Assembly: GCF_024296665.1 (NCBI RefSeq) | Contig: NZ_CP100762.1 | Coordinates: 868,001 to 932,000, forward strand | Origin: Salinilacihabitans rarus | GTDB taxonomy: Archaea; Halobacteriota; Halobacteria; Halobacteriales; Natrialbaceae | Length of the DNA stretch: 64,000 nt | Direction of reading: 5' to 3' | In this document: positions 40,181 through 64,000 of the stretch, in pieces | Layout of the letters: each line of letters begins with the position of its first letter | Numbering within the stretch: position 1 is the first letter of the stretch | Made by a program: the position numbers and the translations under genes | Notes under the pieces: generated by a model | The model's input: only the letters and a program-made list of their open reading frames with translations | What the model was told of the DNA's origin: nothing | Database searches by the model: none

Positions 40181-41362
40181 CTACCGGTCCCGGCCGACCG
40201 TCTCGCCGGGGGTCGTCGTCGCGCCCGCCGACAGCCTCAGCCCGGGCGTGAGGCTCGTGTTGATGCCCGTCTTGACGCCGTCGCCGGCGACGACGCCGAA
40301 CTTGCGCCGGCCGGTCGAGACGCGCTCGCCCTTGACGGTGAACCGGACGGCGTCGTCGTCGTGGCGCAGGTTCGCGACGGTCGTGCCGGCGCCGAAGTTG
40401 ACGTCCCGGCCGAGGACGCTGTCGCCGACGTACGAGAGGTGGCCGACGGTCGCCCCCCGCGAGAGGACGCTGTTTTTCACCTCGACCGCGTGGCCGACCG
40501 TCGAGTCCTCGCCGAGCAGCGTCGCCCCGCGGACGTAGGCGTTCGGCCCGACGCTCGCCCCCGAGCGGACGAGCGCCGGCCCCTCGATCACGACGCCCGC
40601 TTTCACCGTCGCGCCCGCCTCGACGACGACGTCGCCCTCGAGGACCGCCTCCTCGCTGACGTCGCCGTCGATCCGCCGCTCGAGGTCGCCGAGTTTCCAC
40701 TCGTTGGCCGCGAGCAGTTCCCACGGCCGGCCGACGTCCAGCCAGCCGTCGAGGGTGACCGGCGAGACGGCGTACCGGTCGATCACGCGCGCCAGCACGT
40801 CGGTGATCTCGCGCTCGCCGCGCTCGCTGGCGGGCACGTCGAGCCACTCGCTCGCCTCGGCGGGGAAGGCGTACGCGCCCGCGTTCGCGAGGTTCGTCGG
40901 CGGGTCGTCGGGCTTCTCGACGATGTCGGTCACGGCGCCGTCGGCCGTGCTGAGGACGCCGTAGTTACGGGGGTCGTCGACCTCGACGGCACAGACCGCC
41001 GGCGCGGCGGAGAAGAGGCGATCGATCGCCGCGGGGTCGTAGAGGTTGTCGCCGTTGAGCACCGCGAACGGCCCGTCGAGGTGCTCGCGCGCCGCGTTCA
41101 CGGCGTCGGCCGTCCCCGCCCGCTCCTCCTGGACGGCGTACTCGACCGGCACCCCCCGGTACTCCGGGCCGAAGTACTCCCGGACGGCGTCGGCCTCGTA
41201 GCCGACGACGAGGACGACCTCGTCGGCCCCGGCGTCGACTGCCGCGTCGACGGTGTGGGCGACCAGCGGCCGGTCGGCGACGGGCAGCATCGGTTTCGGG
41301 AGCGACTCCGAGAGCGGGCGGATGCGCGTTCCCTCGCCCGCCGCGAGAACGATTGCGTTCAT
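40181..41362 (-). CDS. glmU: Bifunctional sugar-1-phosphate nucleotidylyltransferase/acetyltransferase (GlmU-like)
   Basis: A 393-residue protein. Residues 1-230 are a nucleotidyltransferase with the motif 'LAAGEGTRIRPLSESLPKPM', 'LNGDNLYD' and 'GWLDVGRPWELL'. The rest is a left-handed beta-helix of hexapeptide repeats ('VEAGATVKAGVVIEGPALV', 'GATVGHLSYVGDSVLG'), as in archaeal enzymes that acetylate GlcN-1-P and then make UDP-GlcNAc. With glmS and glmM nearby that is the best reading. dTDP-glucose synthase-type activity is the alternative. The TATA box at 41389-41397 places the start at or near ATG 41362, not the ATG five codons upstream. Confidence 0.9.
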   Translation of the reverse strand: MNAIVLAAGEGTRIRPLSESLPKPMLPVADRPLVAHTVDAAVDAGADEVVLVVGYEADAVREYFGPEYRGVPVEYAVQEERAGTADAVNAAREHLDGPFAVLNGDNLYDPAAIDRLFSAAPAVCAVEVDDPRNYGVLSTADGAVTDIVEKPDDPPTNLANAGAYAFPAEASEWLDVPASERGEREITDVLARVIDRYAVSPVTLDGWLDVGRPWELLAANEWKLGDLERRIDGDVSEEAVLEGDVVVEAGATVKAGVVIEGPALVRSGASVGPNAYVRGATLLGEDSTVGHAVEVKNSVLSRGATVGHLSYVGDSVLGRDVNFGAGTTVANLRHDDDAVRFTVKGERVSTGRRKFGVVAGDGVKTGINTSLTPGLRLSAGATTTPGETVGRDR

Positions 41363-41377
41363 CAGTACTGCGTACAT

Positions 41378-52446: not shown

Positions 52447-52623
52447 ATGTACCGCGCGATCCTCCCGGAGGGGCAGATCCTCTGTGACCGATACGAGCGC
52501 AACGATCAGGGCGTCGAGCTCTACAACGCGAACGACCGGTTCATCGCGTTCGTGCCGTACTCGAACCTGCACGCGCTGCTCGACGAGGACGTCTACAGCG
52601 AGGACGAGCGGTCGATCATGTAG
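52447..52623 (+). CDS. Small conserved haloarchaeal protein (58 aa)
   Basis: A 58-residue protein beginning MYRAILPEGQILCDRYER with a beta-rich middle ('GVELYNANDRFIAFVPYSN') and an acidic end. Coding-like codon use and acidic composition support it. An ATG nine codons upstream gives only a basic extension. Its stop overlaps the tfb stop region by eight bases (convergent). Function unknown. Confidence 0.8.
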   Translation: MYRAILPEGQILCDRYERNDQGVELYNANDRFIAFVPYSNLHALLDEDVYSEDERSIM

Positions 52624-53578
52624 CCGGCGCCTGGTCGATGGCGTCTAGCTGTTCGCGGTAGCGGTTCCGGACGGTGACGACGGTCGTCTGTGCGGTCTCC
52701 GCGACCGCCCGCTGGGGGATGGTCTCGTCGCAGAGCAGGCCGGCGGCGTAGATCGCGGCGGCGGCGTAGCCGGTCGGTGACTTCCCCGAGTGCAGTCCCT
52801 GTTCGGTCGTCCGGTCGATGATCTCGATGGCCTTCGTCTCGACGTCCTTGCCGACGTCGAGTTCCGAGCAGAATCGGGGGACGAACTGGCGGGGGTTCGT
52901 CGGTTCGAGGTTGATGTCGAGTTCGTCGGCGATGTAGCGGTATGTGCGGCCGATCTCGCGCTGGTCGACCCGCGAGACCGCGGTCACCTCCTCCAGACTG
53001 CGCGGGATGCCCTCCTTGCGGCAGGCGGTGTAGAGCGCCGAGGTCGCGACCCCCTCGATCGATCGGCCCCGGATGAGGTCGCGCTCCAGGGCCTGCCGGT
53101 AGATGACGCTCGCGGTCTCCTTGACCGGCGTGGGGACGCCGAGGGCGCTGACCATCCGGTCGATCTCCGAGAGGGCGTACTTCAGGTTGCGCTCGCCGGC
53201 GTTTTTCGTGCGGATGCGTTCCTGCCAGACCCGGAGCCGGTGGAGCTGGCCGTGCTTGTCGGCCGACATCGAGTGGCCGTTGGCGTCGCGGTTGCGCCAG
53301 TCGATGGTCGTCGTCAGCCCCCGGTCGTGCATCGACTGGGTCAGCGGCGCGCCCACGCGCGAGAGCTGATCGTGTTCCTCGGCGTTGAACGCGCGCCACT
53401 CCGGACCGTAGTCGATCGGATCTTCGGTCAACACGAGGCCACACTCCCGACAGACCCGTTCGCCGCGGTCCGGGTCGTGTACGATCGTGTCGGTCTCGCA
53501 GTCCGGACACCGACCCGTCTCCGACTCGGCGGCGGCCTGTGACTCGTATCGGGCGTGATCGCTGCGGGACCGCGTCAT
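52616..53578 (-). CDS. tfb: Transcription initiation factor IIB
   Basis: A 320-residue TFB, the factor that joins TBP-TATA and RNA polymerase. The N-terminal zinc ribbon has CPDCETDTIVHDPDRGERVC order with a second pair CRECG, followed by the B-finger region and two cyclin repeats ('AGERNLKYALSEIDRMVSAL', 'DVETKAIEIIDRTTEQGL'). Haloarchaea have several TFB copies with different targets, and which one this is cannot be told. The 14-codon extension to 53620 is unlikely. A GTTTC/GAAAC inverted repeat lies about 45-60 bases upstream. Confidence 0.95.
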   Translation of the reverse strand: MTRSRSDHARYESQAAAESETGRCPDCETDTIVHDPDRGERVCRECGLVLTEDPIDYGPEWRAFNAEEHDQLSRVGAPLTQSMHDRGLTTTIDWRNRDANGHSMSADKHGQLHRLRVWQERIRTKNAGERNLKYALSEIDRMVSALGVPTPVKETASVIYRQALERDLIRGRSIEGVATSALYTACRKEGIPRSLEEVTAVSRVDQREIGRTYRYIADELDINLEPTNPRQFVPRFCSELDVGKDVETKAIEIIDRTTEQGLHSGKSPTGYAAAAIYAAGLLCDETIPQRAVAETAQTTVVTVRNRYREQLDAIDQAPAT

Positions 53579-54220
53579 CAGTAGCCGGTGGGAATCCGCG
53601 CGCCACTGTAAGGGGTTCACATGGTTTCGGGGGAAACACCGACTTACTCCAGTCGACGGCGCGCCGACGGAGAGGTAAAGAGAGCGGAGAGTGCAGGCGT
53701 CGCGTCCGCCGTCCCGGAGCGGACGCGAACGACGCCGAAACCGCGTCCCATCGGTACGAGCGGGCCGGGTGACCGCCGCCGATCACCCTGCCCACCGTGG
53801 GAGACGTGAACGATCGACATGAAACGTCCGCATCGTTCGCGGCCCCGCCGCCGATAAATCCGGTCTTCACCGGGTAAACGGGTCTTTCGTCGCCGAACCG
53901 TCGGCCAACTTTATACTCGTCACGGCGTACCCGTCAGGCCGTCAGCCGTGTCTCTGCCACCGCCGCACGCCGACGCCGCCGGACCGCCCCGCGGACGCCG
54001 CCGGGTCCGACGACCTGCCCAGGGCTGTACGCCCACGATACGCCCGGGCAATCGTTCGATACCGCGGGCCCGTTCGAGCCGCGATTCGCTCGCTCGGAGC
54101 GCGCCGTCAGCCGGTCGAACGTCGTTCCCGGATACGCCCGGAAGTCCGCCCGTACAGGCTTTGCAGCCGGTGCGAAACGTGGCCGTGCTTAAGAGTCTCA
54201 CCGTTGGCCTCCAAAATGGT
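53579..54220. other. Long intergenic region upstream of tfb
   Basis: 642 bases with no secure gene. GTTTC-gggg-GAAAC (53624-53637) is a perfect inverted repeat just before tfb. On the plus strand a good TATA, ACTTTATACT (about 53908-53917), points right. A GTG 30-odd bases later opens a 134-codon frame to 54352, but its product is Arg/Pro-rich, so a non-coding transcript or long leader is more likely. CTTAAG at about 54189-54194 is another TATA candidate for the small frame at 54221. Confidence 0.45.
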
Positions 54221-54352: not shown

Positions 54353-54948
54353 TGTCGTCGATCGACACCTCGCTGCCCGAGGAGATCACGTCCGTCACCG
54401 ACGCGGAGGACGACGGACGGCTCTCGAAGGACGTCATCTTCGAACTGCTGAAGAACCGCCGCCGACGCGAGGTCCTCGAGTACCTCCTCGAAGCCGAGGG
54501 GACGGTGACCCTCGGCGAACTCGCCGAACAGATCGCCGCCTGGGAGAACGACACCTCCGTCTCCGCGCTCAGTTCCGACCAGCGAAAGCGCGTCTACGTC
54601 GCCCTCTACCAGACTCACCTGCCGAAGATGGACGACGCCGGCATCGTCGACTACGACCAGGACCGCGGTCTCATCGAACTCTCGGACAACGCGGACCTGC
54701 TCCTGATGTACCTCGACACCGACGCCCACCGGCGCGACCGCTGGGACCGCTGGTACGCCGCCGCCAGCGTCGCCGGCGCCGCGCTCGTGGGCGCTGCCGT
54801 CATCGGGCTCCCGCCGCTGTCGGCCGTCTCGACCGCCGGCGTCGCTGCCGGCGTCGTCGCGGCGTTTCTCGTCCTCTCGTTTTCACACGTCGTCGTCAAC
54901 CACCGCTCCCAGCGAGCCGTCGACGGCAAACTCTCCCGCATCGAGTGA
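54352..54948 (+). CDS. Membrane-tethered DUF7344-type winged-helix protein
   Basis: A 198-residue protein. Residues 20-125 are the DUF7344-type winged helix ('LSKDVIFELLKNRRRREVLE', 'ALYQTHLPKMDDAGIVDYD'), related to the soluble regulator at 11502. Two membrane helices follow ('YAAASVAGAALVGAAVIGLP' and 'VAAGVVAAFLVLSFSHVVV'), then a short tail. This would place a DNA-binding domain at the membrane. I start at ATG 54352. The ATG 11 codons upstream has no family support. Confidence 0.87.
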   Translation: MSSIDTSLPEEITSVTDAEDDGRLSKDVIFELLKNRRRREVLEYLLEAEGTVTLGELAEQIAAWENDTSVSALSSDQRKRVYVALYQTHLPKMDDAGIVDYDQDRGLIELSDNADLLLMYLDTDAHRRDRWDRWYAAASVAGAALVGAAVIGLPPLSAVSTAGVAAGVVAAFLVLSFSHVVVNHRSQRAVDGKLSRIE

Positions 54949-55140: not shown

Positions 55141-57192
55141 TTACTGCTCGCGGACGTTGTAGTCGACGTGAACGCGCGCGTCACCGGAGACGGTGACGTC
55201 CTCCGGATCGCCGTCGAACCAGTAGGCGTCGAGCCAGCCGCCGACCGAGCCGCGGACGGCCCGGCCCTCGACGACGTCCTCGTCGTCGATCGAAGCGCCG
55301 CGGTGGTCCGACTTGCGGACGCGGCCGTCGACCGCGAACGAGTAGCGACTCCGCCCGTCGGCCTCGCGGCCGTCGAAGACGATGGCGTGTGGCAGGAGGT
55401 CCTGGTCGCCGTACTCGTCGGGGTCGATCGCCTCGCCGTCGAGCCTGACGGTGGCCTCGCCGCTCGTGAACGTCACGTCGGTCAGCGCCCCGGAGAACCG
55501 GAACCGCTGGGTGCCGTCGGTGACCGAACTCTGGACGGTCGATCCGGAGATCACCGTCGCCTCGTCGTTCGGGTCGTCGTCGCCGTCGATCTCGATCGTG
55601 CCGTCGACCGTGATCTCGAAACTCGAGGGACTCCCGTCGCCGACGACCTCGAGGACGTGGGGGAGCGCCTCGCCGTACTCAAAAGGGTCGACCACCTCAC
55701 CGTCGAGCGTGACGGTCGCGGGGCCGTCGACGGTCAGCGATTCGAGGTCGCCGTCGAAGCGGTAGGCGTCCTTCCAGTTGGCGACGACGCCGTGGACGGC
55801 GCCGTCGTCGATCTCGTCCTCGTCGTCGATCGAGGCGCCCCCGTCGTCGGACTTCTCGACCGGGCCGTCGACGACGAACTCGTAGCGGGTGACGCCCGCC
55901 TCGGAGCCCTCGACGACGAGGACGTGGTCGGGCCCGCCGTCGAACTCGTCGGGGTCGATCTCGACGCCGTTGACCCGGACGGTCGCGGGGCCGTCGACGG
56001 TCAACTCCTCGAGTTCGCCCTCGAAGCGGAAGGCGTCGAGCCAGTTGGCGACGACGCCGCTCGCGCGCTTGCCGTCGACCGTGGCCTCGGCGTCGATCGT
56101 CGCGTCCTCGTCGGTGCTCGGCGCGACGTCGCCGGAGGCCGCGAACTCGTAGCTCGTGTTGTCGCCGGCGCCGCGGCCGTCGAAGACGATGGTGTTCGGG
56201 AGGATCCGTTCTTCCTCCTGCTCGCCGGCGGAACTCGACCCGCCCGCGGCGGCCTCCGCGGCGGAGGTCGGACAGCCCTCGGGGACGAATTCCCGGGGGT
56301 TCGAGCCGTTGCCGCCGCGGAAGTTGATCGATCCGCCCTGAACGGTACGGGTGCCCTCGTCGCCGTAGCCGCGGTCGTACTCGGTGTTCGAGACGTTCAG
56401 GACGCCCCCGCGGGCGTGCAGCGAGTAGTGGCGGCCGTTCATCGCGAGGTGGCAGTTCTCCACCTCGACCGGACCGGGGGCCCACCCCCAGACGCCGCGA
56501 CCGTCCTTGTGTCGCTCGTCGTTGACGGCGACGCTGTTCGTCACCTTCCCCTCGGACAGACGGAAGTGCGAGACCCAGGAGTTCGCGGAGTAGCAGTTGT
56601 CGATGTGGATGGTGCCCCCGCCATTGCCGCCGGGCGCGGAGCAGTAAAAGGAGTTGTCGCCCATCTCCTGGATGTTGACGTTCCGGATGTCGATGTGACC
56701 GCTGTGCTGGGGGGCGACCCAGAGGCCGAGGCCGTGGCGGTGGCCGGCAGTCGCGCCGTCCCCGAGGTAGACGTTCTCGATCAGCGACCGGTTGCCGCCG
56801 CGGTCGGAGACGCCGAGGACGGCGTTCGCGTCGCCGATCCGGCCCTTGATCCCCACGTTGCGGATCGTCCAGTTCGTCCCGTGTGCGATGATCTGCGGCC
56901 AGCAACCGCCGGCCGTACAGTCGATCAGGACGTTCTCGAACGTCTCGCCGTCGTCGACGAAGAACTGTCGCTTCTCGCCGCGCGAGAGTTTCACGACTTC
57001 GTAGTCGTCCTCGTCCGCCGCGGCCGTCGTCGCGGCCGCGGCCGTCGTCGCCGCCGCCGCGGCGGCCGACCCGGCTAGCTTCAGGTACGAGCGGCGGTGG
57101 AGTAATCCACCATTACGCCCGCGATCGGCGCTCTCGCGGCCGATTCCGGCGGGTTCGTCGTCGTCGTCCAGTACCGAAGGTTCGCGTGCCAT
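55141..57192 (-). CDS. Tat-exported beta-helix protein with four C-terminal repeats
   Basis: A 683-residue surface or secreted protein. A Tat motif (HRRSYLKLAGS, residues 32-42) follows an unusually long 31-residue acidic/basic lead. Residues about 80-310 are a right-handed parallel beta-helix ('TWTIRNVGIKG' type rungs, 'SAPGGNGGGTIHIDN'). From about 330 to 683 there are four repeats of about 85 residues, each with 'VFDGRG..YEF' then 'ATID' and 'VANWLDAFRFEGEL'-like strands. It is paralogous to the 59240 gene over the beta-helix. It may bind or process a polysaccharide. Shared promoter boxes lie upstream (57217-57254). Confidence 0.85.
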   Translation of the reverse strand: MAREPSVLDDDDEPAGIGRESADRGRNGGLLHRRSYLKLAGSAAAAAATTAAAATTAAADEDDYEVVKLSRGEKRQFFVDDGETFENVLIDCTAGGCWPQIIAHGTNWTIRNVGIKGRIGDANAVLGVSDRGGNRSLIENVYLGDGATAGHRHGLGLWVAPQHSGHIDIRNVNIQEMGDNSFYCSAPGGNGGGTIHIDNCYSANSWVSHFRLSEGKVTNSVAVNDERHKDGRGVWGWAPGPVEVENCHLAMNGRHYSLHARGGVLNVSNTEYDRGYGDEGTRTVQGGSINFRGGNGSNPREFVPEGCPTSAAEAAAGGSSSAGEQEEERILPNTIVFDGRGAGDNTSYEFAASGDVAPSTDEDATIDAEATVDGKRASGVVANWLDAFRFEGELEELTVDGPATVRVNGVEIDPDEFDGGPDHVLVVEGSEAGVTRYEFVVDGPVEKSDDGGASIDDEDEIDDGAVHGVVANWKDAYRFDGDLESLTVDGPATVTLDGEVVDPFEYGEALPHVLEVVGDGSPSSFEITVDGTIEIDGDDDPNDEATVISGSTVQSSVTDGTQRFRFSGALTDVTFTSGEATVRLDGEAIDPDEYGDQDLLPHAIVFDGREADGRSRYSFAVDGRVRKSDHRGASIDDEDVVEGRAVRGSVGGWLDAYWFDGDPEDVTVSGDARVHVDYNVREQ

Positions 57193-57216
57193 GCATTCGG
57201 GTAACCTCGGGATTCC

Positions 57217-57254
57217 CCCATAAACATTTCGTTCTCTCCACTATTAAAATTTAC
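57217..57254 (-). promoter_or_regulatory. Two-box promoter of the first beta-helix gene
   Basis: On the minus strand GTAAATTTTAA (57244-57254), 18 bases, then GTTTATGGG (57217-57225), with GTTTATGGG centred about 30 bases before the ATG. The same two boxes with the same 18-base gap and the same distance to the ATG precede the paralogue at 60187. GTTTATG is probably the TATA/BRE region and GTAAATTTTAA an activator site. Confidence 0.65.
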
Positions 57255-57425
57255 ATACATTCTCTTGTTACTGGAGGATCGTTCAGAATATCTTCTACGT
57301 TTAGCAAGGATTATTAGGAGGCGGCGGCGGGTTGGCGCTCGGTAATACCGTATTACCGGTTTCGGGACGGACGGCCGGCCGCGAGTCGTGACGAGGAACC
57401 GTCAGGGTCGGCCGCCGCGGGCCGC

Positions 57426-57677
57426 TCAGTCGAGATAGCCGAGCGAGCGCAGGCGCGTCTCGACCTCCTCGCGGTCGACGGTCCCGTCGGGGTCGTCGTC
57501 GCTCTCGGCCTCGACGCGCCCGAGGACCTCCTCGAGGACGTACGTCACGTACTCGTCTGCGGTCTCGAACTCGGTGCGTTCGATCCGCGCGTCGACCCGG
57601 TCGACGAGGGGCGTCGGGAGTTCGACGGCCGTCGCCCGGGCGTCCACGTCAGCGTCGGTGAGGTTTCGCTGCTCCAT
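57426..57677 (-). CDS. Ribbon-helix-helix-like small protein with sulfatase-type C-terminal tail
   Basis: An 83-residue protein. Residues 14-52 ('ATAVELPTPLVDRVDARIER', 'TADEYVTYVLEEVLGRVE') fit a ribbon-helix-helix DNA-binding fold. After an acidic linker it ends VETRLRSLGYLD, nearly the same as the tail VEDRLSDLGYL of the phosphodiesterase at 44888. That tail is familiar from AlkP/sulfatase proteins. The sulfatase-fold gene next door (57872) lacks it. It may act with that enzyme as regulator or partner. This is inference. Confidence 0.8.
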   Translation of the reverse strand: MEQRNLTDADVDARATAVELPTPLVDRVDARIERTEFETADEYVTYVLEEVLGRVEAESDDDPDGTVDREEVETRLRSLGYLD

Positions 57678-57836
57678 AGCGTGTCCGTCCGGTTACTGTC
57701 CAATCGCATTGTTATTCCGCGGGTACCGGACGTTCGGCTCGCGACATCGTTCGTACCCGGAATATAATTTTCCCGTCACTTCCGCCGGCTCGCGGTGCCG
57801 CCCGCCCGCTCGACGCCCGTCGGACGGAACCCGGGC

Positions 57837-57852
57837 GATAACAAAGGACCGA
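57837..57852 (+). promoter_or_regulatory. Promoter box GATAACAAAGGACCGA of the sulfatase gene
   Basis: ATAACAAAG at 57838-57846 is centred 30 bases before the ATG at 57872, the TATA position for a leaderless transcript. The same nonamer stands before the phosphodiesterase (46533-46541) and CoA-transferase (62890-62898) genes, followed in each case by a CCGA or CCCGA. Confidence 0.55.
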
Positions 57853-57871
57853 CTCCGCGTCGTGACGACCC

Positions 57872-59113
57872 ATGACGGAACCGCGTGACGTCGTCCTGAT
57901 CACCGTCGACAGCCTGCGCGCCGACCGCTGTGGCTTCATGGGGGGCGGGGCCGACGTGACGCCGACGCTCGACGCGCTGGCCGCGGACGGCCTCGTCTTC
58001 GAGAACGCCGTCGCCCCCGCGCCGGAGACCAACGGCTCGGTCGCGACGACGTTCACCGGCCAGTACTCGAACCCGAAACTCGAGTCCGACCTCTCGAACT
58101 ACACCGAGCGCACTCGCGAGCACATGAGCGCGCTCCGGACGATTCCCCAGCGGTTCTCGGAACTCGGCTACGAGACGGCCGGGATCACCGCGAACCCGTG
58201 GACGTCGCGGTACTTCGCGTTCGACCGGGACTTCGACCGCTTCGAGGACACGATGGACGACAACCTCTCGAAGGGGCTCGTCGCCGAGGGGAACGACCGC
58301 GGACTCGCACGCGACGTGCTCGCGCAGGTGCTCAACTGGTGGCAGGGACAGGATATGTTCATGTCCTGGGAGTCGCTGTACGACGAGATCGAGACGACCC
58401 TCGCGGACCTCGAGTCGCCGTACTTCTGCTGGATCTTCCTCGTCGACGTCCACATGCCCTACTTCCCCGGCGACGGCTACCGCACCCGTTCGCGGCTGCT
58501 GACCTACCCGGCGAACGCCTCGCTGTTCGTCGGCAAGTACGAACTCCCGCTGCAGTCGCTGTTCCACGACGTGCTGGTCCAGTCGTACGACGACGCCGTG
58601 CGGTACACCGACGCGTTCTTCGAGCGGTTCCTCGACGACGTCGAGGGCGACCCCCTGATCGCGGTCACCAGCGACCACGGCGAGGGGTTCGGCGAGGACG
58701 GCATGTACGGCCACGGGCCGAAGGTCTCCGAGGAGGCGCTGCACGTCCCGCTGGTGGTGGCCAACGGGCCCACCGGCTCTGTCGAGCGGCCGTTCTCGCT
58801 GCGCCGACTCCCGTCGCTGCTCACCGCGCTGGCGACCGGCGACGCCTACGAGGACCTCCTCGAACCGGTCGTCGTGGGCCGCAACTACGATCCCGCCATC
58901 GCCGTCCGCGGCCGGCGGTGGCGCTACGTGTGGCGTCCGGAGGAGCAACGCGTCGAACTCCGGGGAGACGACCCGTTCGAGTGGGAACCGGCCGACGTCC
59001 CTGAACTGGCGGCCATCGGCCGGGACGTGGTCGAGGCGTTCCTCGAGAGCGAACGGGAGCGAAAGCGGATCATCGACGCCGCGTCGGACGTGGCCGCGAG
59101 CGCGGCGCTTTGA
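57872..59113 (+). CDS. Sulfatase-fold hydrolase or transferase (no formylglycine motif)
   Basis: A 413-residue AlkP-superfamily protein. N-terminal metal site 'DVVLITVDSLRADRCGFMG', later 'FLVDVHMPYFPGDG' and 'AVTSDHGEGFGEDG' and 'YGHGPKVSEEALHVPL'. Where true sulfatases have C/S-x-P-x-R this one has 'APAPETNGSVATTFTG', so no formylglycine can form. A Ser/Thr nucleophile as in phosphoglycerol transferases is likely. It probably acts on surface glycan or lipid esters. It is divergent from the ribbon-helix-helix gene and lies between the beta-helix paralogues. Confidence 0.88.
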   Translation: MTEPRDVVLITVDSLRADRCGFMGGGADVTPTLDALAADGLVFENAVAPAPETNGSVATTFTGQYSNPKLESDLSNYTERTREHMSALRTIPQRFSELGYETAGITANPWTSRYFAFDRDFDRFEDTMDDNLSKGLVAEGNDRGLARDVLAQVLNWWQGQDMFMSWESLYDEIETTLADLESPYFCWIFLVDVHMPYFPGDGYRTRSRLLTYPANASLFVGKYELPLQSLFHDVLVQSYDDAVRYTDAFFERFLDDVEGDPLIAVTSDHGEGFGEDGMYGHGPKVSEEALHVPLVVANGPTGSVERPFSLRRLPSLLTALATGDAYEDLLEPVVVGRNYDPAIAVRGRRWRYVWRPEEQRVELRGDDPFEWEPADVPELAAIGRDVVEAFLESERERKRIIDAASDVAASAAL

Positions 59114-59239
59114 GGGGGCGGCGATCGAAACCGCTCGCGAGCCCGCGAACCCACGCGCGGAGTGAGAGGGAGTTCGGGAGCGGAGAGCCGAACCGTCGGC
59201 GGGGATCGAAGGCGGAGGGCCGAGTCGTCAGCGGAGCCG

Positions 59240-60187
59240 TCAGTCACGGCCGCCGGAGGCGGCCTCCTCGGGGCTCGTGGGGACGCCGTCGGGGACGACG
59301 TCTTCGGGGTTCGAGCCGTTGCCGCCCGCTTCGCTGATGTCGCCGCCGTTGGGGAGGATGCCGTCGCCGTTCCAGTCCGTGTTGCGAATGGTCACGGTCG
59401 AGCCCCGGCCGTTCGCGCCGCCGACGACCGCGTAGTGGCGGCCGTTCGTCGCGAGCTGGCAGTCGTCGATCGCGACCTCGCCCGGTGCCCAACACCAGAC
59501 GCCGCGACCGGCGTAGCCGTCCTCGTCGATGCAGACCGTCGAGTTCGTCACCTTGCTCCCCTCGGAGCCGATCCGGAAGTGAGAGATGCGACAGTTGGCC
59601 GCGTAACTCGAGTCGATGTGGACGGTGCCCCCGCCCTTGCCGCCGGGCGCGGAGGCGTAGATGCCGTTGTCCGAGAACGCCTGTACGTTGACGCGCTCGA
59701 AGTCGATGTGGCCGCTGTGCTCGGGGCTGACCCAGATGGCAGTCTCGGCCGTCGAGTGGCCGGCGTTGGTGCTGCCGTCCCCGAGGTAGACGTTCTCGAA
59801 CGTGCTCGTGTTGCCGCCGGTGTCCGAGACGCCGAAGACGGCGCCCGGCTTGCCGACGTCGAGTTCCCCTTTGACCGCGACGTTGCGGATCGTCCAGTCG
59901 GTGCCGTGGGCGGCGACCGTCACGCGGGCGCCGGGAGCGGTGCAGTCGAACAGAACGTTCTCGAACGTTTCGCCGCTCTCGACCCGGATGGTCCGGTCCT
60001 CGCCCGCCGAGATCGTGATGGTCTCGTACTCCTGCTGGGCGGCCGCGGTGCCGGCCACCGCGGCGGACGACGCGCCCACCGCGGCGACGGCCGCCAGCGA
60101 GCGGACGTACGAGCGCCGCGTTAACCGCGAATTACGGCCGGCGGTCGGGAGGGACGCGTCTTCGGTCGTAGGGGGTTCATGCGGCAT
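59240..60187 (-). CDS. Tat-exported beta-helix protein (paralogue)
   Basis: A 315-residue protein with a Tat motif TRRSYVRSLAAV near residue 22 and a right-handed parallel beta-helix closely related to residues 80-310 of the 55141 protein: shared 'GETFENVL', 'TDWTIRNVAVKG', 'ENVYLGDGS', 'SPEHSGHIDF', 'SAPGGKGGGTVHID' and 'NGRHYAV'. It ends where the other protein's repeats begin. I start at MPHEPPTTED. The ATG ten codons upstream falls in the shared promoter segment. Substrate unknown, probably a surface polysaccharide. Confidence 0.85.
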   Translation of the reverse strand: MPHEPPTTEDASLPTAGRNSRLTRRSYVRSLAAVAAVGASSAAVAGTAAAQQEYETITISAGEDRTIRVESGETFENVLFDCTAPGARVTVAAHGTDWTIRNVAVKGELDVGKPGAVFGVSDTGGNTSTFENVYLGDGSTNAGHSTAETAIWVSPEHSGHIDFERVNVQAFSDNGIYASAPGGKGGGTVHIDSSYAANCRISHFRIGSEGSKVTNSTVCIDEDGYAGRGVWCWAPGEVAIDDCQLATNGRHYAVVGGANGRGSTVTIRNTDWNGDGILPNGGDISEAGGNGSNPEDVVPDGVPTSPEEAASGGRD

Positions 60188-60212
60188 TGCGTCCGGGTAA
60201 TAAGCAGTTGGG

Positions 60213-60250
60213 CCCATAAACTTTTCCTTATTGACGGGGTTAAAATTTAC
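60213..60250 (-). promoter_or_regulatory. Two-box promoter of the second beta-helix gene
   Basis: GTAAATTTTAA (60240-60250), 18 bases, GTTTATGGG (60213-60221), about 26 bases, then the start codon, all on the minus strand. TTACCCG-A-GCA just before the ATG is also shared with the paralogue. The rest of the two upstream regions differs, so the boxes stand out as conserved. Confidence 0.65.
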
Positions 60251-60436
60251 TGAAGATTTTTAGATCTATATGGAACCGCTAGCAAACTATGACGGTTCGT
60301 GCGTGAACGAACGACCGTCGGGTCCGGTCGACCGTCGGGACCGCGCGAACGAAAACCGTCTATTACGCGGGCGGTGGAGCCGTTCCGAACGAGTAATAGA
60401 CTATTATCGGCCGGTTTCGCGGTTCGGGGCGGACGA

Positions 60437-63050: not shown

Positions 63051-64000
63051 ATGCTGGAGACAACCCGTACCTATCGGGCGAAAATCGTCAATCACCAACA
63101 GGTGAGTGACGACCTCGATGACTGCGGATACTCAGCGTCCAAACTGTGGAACGTCGCTCGCTACCACGCCCAACAAGTGTGGGACGAAACCGGTGAGATT
63201 CCGTCCGAAGCCGACCTCAAGCGCGAATTAAAAGCCCACGAACGCTACAGTGACCTCCATTCTCAGTCAAGTCAGCGCGTTCTCGAAGAACTCGCTGAGG
63301 CGTTCAACGGTTGGTTCAAAAAGCGCAAGAACGACGACACGGGCGCGAATCCTCCCGGCTACCGAAAGCGAGGTGACAACCATCCGCGCTCCACCGTGAC
63401 GTGGAAGCAGAACGGCATCAAGCACGACTTTAAGCACAACAAACTCCGTCTGAGCAAGGGCTTCAACCTGAAGGCCCACCGCTCGGACTTCATCCTCGCA
63501 GAGTACGAGACGCGCCCGGACGTGACCGTGGAGAACATCCAGCAAGTACGAGCCGTGTGGAACGGCGACCGCTGGGAACTCCACCTTGTCTGCAAAGTCG
63601 AAATTCCCGTCGAGGACGCACCCGGCGATAACGCGGCGGGTATCGACCTTGGTATCAAGAACTACCTCGCAATCGCCTACGATGACGGTGAGGCTGAACT
63701 ATATCCGGGGAACGTCCTGAAGCAGGACAAGCACTACTTCACGCGAGACGAGTACGAAACTGAAGGCGAGTACGGGCCGTCACGTCGTGCCCTTCGCGCT
63801 CGGCAGAAACTCTCGCGTCGAAAAAACCACTTCCTGCACGCCCTCGCCAAACACATCGTTGAGAGGTGTATCGACCACGATGTTGGTCACATCGCCATTG
63901 GGGACTTGAGTCAGATTCGAGAGAACGAGAACGGCGAGGCTCGAAACTGGGGCAGGCATGGCAACAAGAAACTCCACGGATGGGAGTTCGACCGTTTCAC
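63051..64000 (+). CDS. tnpB: TnpB, RNA-guided nuclease of IS200/IS605 family (3' truncated by window)
   Basis: 316 codons are visible from ATG 63051 to the window edge with no stop. The N-terminal helix-turn-helix region begins 'YRAKIVNHQQVSDDLDDCG'. 'VRAVWNGDRWELHLVCKVE' leads into the RuvC-like core with the first catalytic Asp D199 in AAGIDLGIKNYLAIA. 'HIAIGDLSQIRENENGE' follows near 280-296 with Gly where many TnpBs have Glu. The zinc finger and the last RuvC Asp should lie in the roughly 100 missing residues. TnpB cuts DNA with a guide RNA from the element's right end. Confidence 0.93.
   Translation, partial: MLETTRTYRAKIVNHQQVSDDLDDCGYSASKLWNVARYHAQQVWDETGEIPSEADLKRELKAHERYSDLHSQSSQRVLEELAEAFNGWFKKRKNDDTGANPPGYRKRGDNHPRSTVTWKQNGIKHDFKHNKLRLSKGFNLKAHRSDFILAEYETRPDVTVENIQQVRAVWNGDRWELHLVCKVEIPVEDAPGDNAAGIDLGIKNYLAIAYDDGEAELYPGNVLKQDKHYFTRDEYETEGEYGPSRRALRARQKLSRRKNHFLHALAKHIVERCIDHDVGHIAIGDLSQIRENENGEARNWGRHGNKKLHGWEFDRF

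Follow-up and report, generated by a model that had tools for sequence, protein, structure and literature searches.

In a 64,000-nucleotide stretch of the Salinilacihabitans rarus genome (contig NZ_CP100762.1, positions 868,001 to 932,000; hereafter the window), two genes for exported beta-helix proteins, one long and one short, carry repeated copies of a 17-bp dyad, GGTAAT-N5-ATTACC, upstream of, at and just inside their starts. This dyad is the main feature of the locus and was overlooked in an earlier note on the same DNA. Its symmetry and placement suggest that a dimeric regulator with external and internal operators, probably a repressor, controls an envelope regulon to which the pair belongs, a reading to which we give a probability of roughly two in three. 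The source genome, a single contig of 3.62 Mb, was searched by pattern, and comparisons were made across 121 Natrialbaceae genomes, with subsets (for example 26 genomes) used for some counts.

Results

A symmetric dyad recurs at fixed positions around the starts of both genes

Five of the 14 window dyads that match at 8/10 or better fall in 682 bp surrounding the two gene starts (p = 2.5e-7; 0/2000 shuffles; Table 1). This p-value is not fully independent, since relatives and this locus itself served to choose the dyad consensus; stronger tests are the shuffles, the codon data reported below and the reversed control. Across the upstream regions of 37 long genes there are 40 sites at 9/10 or better, against 0.3 in shuffles, with peaks at -16 and at -157 to -161. 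The -16 dyad (position -14 to -18) reaches 8/10 or better in 27 of these 37 genes, and at 7/10 or better it is found in 31/37 long and 27/30 short genes; a GTA-N9-TAC element at -16 is a weaker form of the same dyad. In relatives the upstream copy is placed at -156 to -161, as in the long genes of many genera, or else between -202 and -235, and it shows symmetric changes, such that altered half-sites still mirror each other (e.g. GGTAAGATTCTCTTACC and GTAATGTATCATTAC). Symmetry that survives changes in the half-sites, together with a position fixed relative to the promoter above chance, is what would be expected of an operator. In one genus (L050 and L051, from genomes G008 and G035) the long copy is inverted with respect to its short partner and retains its own promoter and dyads.

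The dyads could also fold, with seven-base stems, three-base loops and possible compensatory changes, so that they might act in RNA as small hairpins, terminators or attenuators. We consider this highly improbable: neither the -157 nor the -16 copy would enter the message, as both precede the inferred transcription start, the distance of the dyads is fixed to the downstream start and not to the upstream stop, and an Rfam search yielded sub-threshold noise only.

Dyads inside the genes are written in avoided codons

An intragenic dyad at 8/10 or better stands just before the RRSY codons of the twin-arginine translocation (Tat) signal in 30 of 44 genes, whereas 35 kb of coding DNA farther downstream had none. 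At this site in the long genes, leucine is encoded by TTA in 22/25 cases versus 3/702 elsewhere, and AAT is used in 19/21 versus 26/750. Because these dyads are spelled in otherwise avoided codons, protein conservation is insufficient to account for them, and selection acts on the DNA itself. An operator placed within a gene by means of almost unused codons would be a clean archaeal case of two codes in one sequence.

Constraint at the nucleotide level extends further. Codons 2-8 of the long gene have a synonymous identity of 0.93, versus a background of 0.63 and 0.46 in the neighbouring DUF7344 gene used as a control, and rare codons are kept at the gene starts (GTA in 28/30, versus 2%, and CCT in 22/24 in the long genes; AAT in 11/20 in the short genes). 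This conservation covers the first seven to eight codons (57169-57192 and 60167-60187) and reaches beyond the dyads, which leave it unexplained. A hairpin formed by these first codons was rejected, as the ACC-UUC-GGU stem is disrupted in relatives, judged by eye.

Two boxes are kept on both genes, the second a probable leaderless TATA element

The earlier note had reported two boxes, separated by exactly 18 bases and equally distant from the ATG, upstream of both genes, and had proposed a genome scan for them. The pattern GTAAATTTTAA-N18-GTTTATGGG matches twice in the window, both times on the minus strand (57217-57254 and 60213-60250), and never in 100 shuffles, which is far above chance; the whole 3.6-Mb genome holds the same two matches and none for the reversed pattern. 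GTTTATGGG and the ATG are 24 nt apart in the long and 25 nt in the short gene, so the claim of equal distance holds to within one nucleotide. The surrounding sequence does differ, as had been said: the boxes are identical between the two genes (11/11 and 9/9), compared with 8/18 in the spacer and 35/91 over the 91 bp farther upstream.

A relaxed form of the box pair gave 58 matches in 55 of the 121 genomes, and all 30 of the loci fetched lay just upstream of a beta-helix gene start; a looser form gave 22 matches in 26 genomes, every one at a short or long gene by coordinate comparison. Both sister genes thus retain the boxes throughout the family, even as the spacers drift, and the boxes are absent elsewhere in the 26 genomes, which strongly supports co-regulation of the two genes; the occurrence at many unrelated genes that the note had named as evidence to the contrary was not seen. 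Among 29 short and 35 long upstream regions the order is conserved as TGTAAATTTWAA, GGAAARGTTTATG, GTA-N9-TAC ending in TTAC, and the start codon. Box 1 reads GTAAATTTTAA in the source genome and GTAAATTTAA in many relatives. The promoter of DUF7344 in the same genomes has no conserved blocks, though the DUF7344 protein is the more conserved, and box 1 (TGTAAATTTWAA) is an upstream element specific to this beta-helix gene family.

A T tract lies about 32 nt ahead of the ATG in the upstream regions of relatives. Haloarchaeal TATA and B recognition elements (BRE) have been described, and most Haloferax volcanii transcripts are leaderless (PMC4983044). Since the spacing of the T tract is that of leaderless haloarchaeal promoters, the second box is best read as the TATA element of such a promoter. 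Of the two boxes put forward as regulator sites, then, the second belongs to the core promoter, and box 1 remains a possible factor site.

This bears directly on the scheme of the earlier note, in which a factor reading both boxes would co-regulate the pair and the sulfatase-fold gene between them for work on a surface polysaccharide. That the box pair is exclusive to the beta-helix genes would suit such a factor. The scheme nevertheless seems improbable to us, given that the second box is read as TATA and that the sulfatase-fold gene has no boxes, lies in the opposite orientation and is lineage-specific; its proposed share in the regulation and task of the pair is not borne out. Somewhat better placed, and still unlikely, is the proposal that these are leaderless, highly expressed genes with a strong conserved core promoter only (BRE, TATA, -10 and start context) and no special regulator. 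The second box and the TTAC at -10 match the description of haloarchaeal BRE, TATA and -10 elements (PMC4983044), and the flanks of the start codon are important in short-leader genes (PMC4574771). Such a promoter gives no account, however, of the dyads at other surface genes, the rare-codon dyads within the genes, the perfect copies at -157 or box 1.

The dyad also lies near other envelope genes

A search of the 121 genomes for the perfect dyad gave 60 matches, spread over 39 of them, compared with one for the reversed control. Among the 30 loci fetched, beta-helix genes account for 16. Seven others lie near a gene for an MscS-type channel (PF05552), 526 to 621 bp from its start, and four of these seven are also near a creatininase gene. 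Single loci precede a gene for a surface-layer (S-layer) type glycoprotein (halo_sig_pep, TIGR04207), an SPW protein gene and a DUF7282 protein gene, and one dyad overlaps the start of a gene for a Tat protein with weak lyase matches. Three of the 14 loci outside the beta-helix genes have no clear link to surface or membrane. In the source genome, the best dyad away from the pair has two mismatches and is found 266 bp ahead of a gene for an 803-aa S-layer-type protein (G000:C1:2648282). The motif therefore has several functionally related targets, namely surface and membrane genes, as an operator should. At one further locus (L173, G032:C1:1109327) a dyad precedes, by about 460 bp, a nucleotidyltransferase gene resembling that at 40181-41377 of the window.

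Whether GGTAAT-N5-ATTACC defines a hitherto undescribed haloarchaeal envelope regulon, in which one regulator would link the S-layer glycoprotein, a mechanosensitive channel and the exported beta-helix proteins and would use internal operators within Tat-signal codons, seems to us evenly balanced. If it does, export signal and gene switch use the same bases. Little is known of how haloarchaea adjust the S-layer and surface proteins to salt and turgor, and a precise DNA word common to these three kinds of genes would give a direct handle on the regulator.

As candidates for that regulator we can name only a TetR protein, whose gene stands ahead of the S-layer gene in two relatives and not in the source genome, and the DUF7344 protein beside the pair. 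The latter has an orthologue of 73-82% identity in well-covered family genomes that have the pair, and a role as regulator of the pair is possible. Against a dedicated role, its own promoter has no boxes, and its gene follows the TFB (transcription factor B) and XPB genes where it is unlinked from the pair. Literature searches on DUF7344 and on haloarchaeal exported beta-helix genes found nothing useful.

A model with external and internal operators

In the model that we favour, transcription would begin at or a few bases from the ATG, from the BRE/TATA promoter of the second box. From the dyads we infer a putative homodimeric DNA-binding protein that would recognise GGTAAT-N5-ATTACC and, when bound at -16, would stand in the way of RNA polymerase between the TATA element and the start. 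The same factor may also occupy the second site inside the gene, at +59 or +83, and the auxiliary dyad at about -157 or farther upstream could assist by looping or cooperative binding. Box 1, at about -63, is probably bound by another factor, an activator peculiar to this gene family. Archaeal regulator sites at or downstream of the promoter usually repress and upstream sites usually activate (PMC8406309), by which rule the dyad factor would most likely repress, aided by auxiliary sites, and box 1 would serve an activator. Because the same dyad is found at S-layer glycoprotein, MscS-channel and other surface genes, the pair would be a member of a cell-envelope regulon.

Several observations weigh against this model. 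The -16 site of the short gene is degenerate in the source genome (7/10), the upstream dyads of short genes lack a single fixed position, and the -16 box partly overlaps the leaderless -10 region and could be core promoter. At the MscS genes, 526-621 bp is far for a promoter operator, and about two thirds of the 121 genomes yielded no perfect dyad. Finally, the regulator is represented by candidates only, and the dyads are read from DNA sequence.

The arrangement resembles bacterial multi-operator repression in the lac, gal and deo systems, in which a promoter operator is joined by upstream and intragenic auxiliary operators; in both, copies of a palindromic operator occupy constrained places before the gene, at its promoter and within it. 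Unlike those systems, the pair has an archaeal leaderless TATA promoter, and looping here is a proposal. A symmetric motif ahead of several genes is likewise known from the haloarchaeal TrmB-type and CdrS (ribbon-helix-helix) regulons. The TrmB motif, TACT-N7/8-GAGTA, differs from GGTAAT-N5-ATTACC. CdrS binds for the most part between 41 and 110 nt ahead of the start, with cell-division and proteasome genes as its targets, and CdrS repression also touches surface-protein genes (PMC8406309); the comparison of CdrS with the dyad system covers these positions and targets.

The pair is old and its helix domains show signs of exchange

Across the family the same arrangement recurs: XPB, a small gene, TFB, DUF7344, the long gene and the short gene, often followed by an acetyltransferase and a CoA-transferase gene. 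The short genes, including the window copy, form one clade of 27 rows with support of 100/100, and the beta-helix genes are therefore an ancient tandem pair that predates the genera. The recent duplication that the earlier note had named as a possible objection is ruled out by this tree and by the lack of alignable upstream DNA. The helix domain of the long protein falls into deep types about 37% and 65% identical to the window copy, and in one clade the C-terminal repeats stay at about 65% while the helix domain falls to about 37%, a pattern that points to domain replacement in that clade. In two genomes (G013 and G020) the helix domain of the short copy groups with the long copy of the same genome, a sign of gene conversion, yet each copy keeps its type-specific start.

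Such exchanges could suggest that the dyads are recombination sites, serving gene conversion or site-specific exchange that swaps the helix domain and leaves the 5' end and the C-terminal repeats in place; the contrast between helix-domain types and repeats and the same-genome clusters in G013 and G020 would fit. We regard it as very unlikely, because the dyads hold places fixed relative to the promoter and occur also beside single genes (S-layer, MscS, SPW) that have no swapped partner, and because the inter-box spacer is not homogenised.

A Natronobiforma genome (G014; L044, 10672-18600) carries several tandem beta-helix copies in an expanded array, some with degenerate control regions. The source genome has two remoter paralogues (L059, G000:C1:452-457 kb), one of which starts ATGGCACGCGAACCTGACGTACTGGAT and lacks box 1; they adjoin an asparagine-synthase-like gene.

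The encoded proteins

Both products were described in the earlier note as Tat-exported beta-helix proteins, and this stands: each has an RR Tat motif (LHRRSYLKLAG in the long, LTRRSYVRSL in the short), the two are about 55% identical across the beta-helix domain, and the short protein was modelled as a right-handed beta-helix (predicted local distance difference test, pLDDT, 78; predicted template modelling score, pTM, 0.80). The family PF13229 is matched by 3 of 10 relatives, and the window short protein itself has no direct Pfam match to it; model and relatives agree on a fold of the PF13229 type. The C-terminal repeats of the long protein form beta-rich units in a model (pLDDT 81, pTM 0.41), for which no fold match was obtained.

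A Foldseek search with the short-protein model gave PL3 pectate lyases as best solved matches (E = 2.6e-3), a weak, fold-level resemblance, with template modelling (TM) scores of 0.43, also weak, to PL3 1ee6 and to Pel9A; a sequence search of the PDB found no relatives and no PL3 or PL9 match. Fold and export are shared with right-handed beta-helix, pectate-lyase-like proteins (PF13229; PL3, PL9 and tailspike-like glycan enzymes), among which there is no confident match (best E 2.6e-3, TM about 0.43) and no assignment of catalytic residues. E73, D81, R101, E131, Y134, D137, R205, R228 and W231 are invariant or nearly so in 67 homologues and are candidates for a binding or active site. The chances that these proteins bind or modify glycan seem to us about equal either way; polysaccharide binding or trimming is a guess from fold type and neighbourhood. 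Exported beta-helix domains are also found in the variable pectin-lyase-fold surface proteins of a Haloquadratum cell-surface island, likened here by description, which are much larger and multidomain (PMC4535781).

Neighbouring genes and feature coordinates

The gene between the pair was correctly assigned a sulfatase fold (Table 1). Membership of the S1 sulfatases is supported by the fold (PF00884) and not by the formylglycine motif C/S-x-P-x-R, which is missing; the expected spot reads NAVAPAPETNGS by eye. Its 83-aa neighbour gave no match in family searches, and the ribbon-helix-helix label is for that reason unproven. Neither gene was present between the pair in any other region read. G013 has a 70% relative of the sulfatase-fold gene with an adjacent 53% relative of the 83-aa gene, about 245 kb from its beta-helix pair, and we judge the two genes to be a lineage-specific insertion and not part of the unit.

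Table 1. Features of the locus in window coordinates; dyad scores are matches out of ten, and centres are relative to the start of the gene named.
Feature	Position	Strand	Remarks
Operator dyad GGTAATACCGTATTACC	57341..57357	.	10/10; centre -157 of long gene; sole perfect copy in the genome
Operator-like dyad GGAATCCCGAGGTTACC	57200..57216	.	8/10; centre -16 of long gene, between TATA and ATG
Intragenic operator-like dyad CGTAATGGTGGATTACT	57101..57117	.	8/10; centre +83 of long gene, just before RRSY codons
Operator-like dyad GATAATAGTCTATTACT	60392..60408	.	8/10; centre -213 of short gene
Degenerate operator CCCAACTGCTTATTACC	60196..60212	.	7/10; right half-site intact; centre -17 of short gene
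Intragenic operator-like dyad CGTAATTCGCGGTTAAC	60120..60136	.	8/10; centre +59 of short gene, before RRSY codons
Box 1 of long gene, GTAAATTTTAA	57244..57254	-	kept as TGTAAATTTTA in long genes family-wide
Box 2 of long gene, GTTTATGGG, probable BRE/TATA core (GAAATGTTTATG)	57217..57225	-	in relatives, T tract some 32 nt ahead of ATG
Box 1 of short gene, GTAAATTTTAA	60240..60250	-	pattern match, upstream comparison
Box 2 of short gene, GTTTATGGG, probable BRE/TATA core (AAGGAAAAGTTTATG)	60213..60221	-	pattern match, upstream comparison
First eight codons of long gene, ATGGCACGCGAACCTTCGGTACTG	57169..57192	-	nucleotide-level conservation
Long exported gene, 683 aa	55141..57192	-	Tat motif LHRRSY; N-terminal beta-helix domain; C-terminal tandem beta-rich repeats
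Short exported beta-helix gene, 315 aa	59240..60187	-	Tat motif LTRRSY; predicted leaderless start at 60187
Sulfatase-fold (alkaline phosphatase superfamily) gene	57872..59113	+	PF00884, 8e-35; between the pair
83-aa gene, possible ribbon-helix-helix	57426..57677	-	between the pair; accompanies sulfatase-fold gene
DUF7344 winged-helix protein gene	54355..54948	+	PF24035, 3.9e-35; convergent neighbour of the pair

The TFB gene of the window (52616-53620) keeps near the DUF7344 gene family-wide, and the window ends within the beginning of a possible transposase-like gene (63051-64000).

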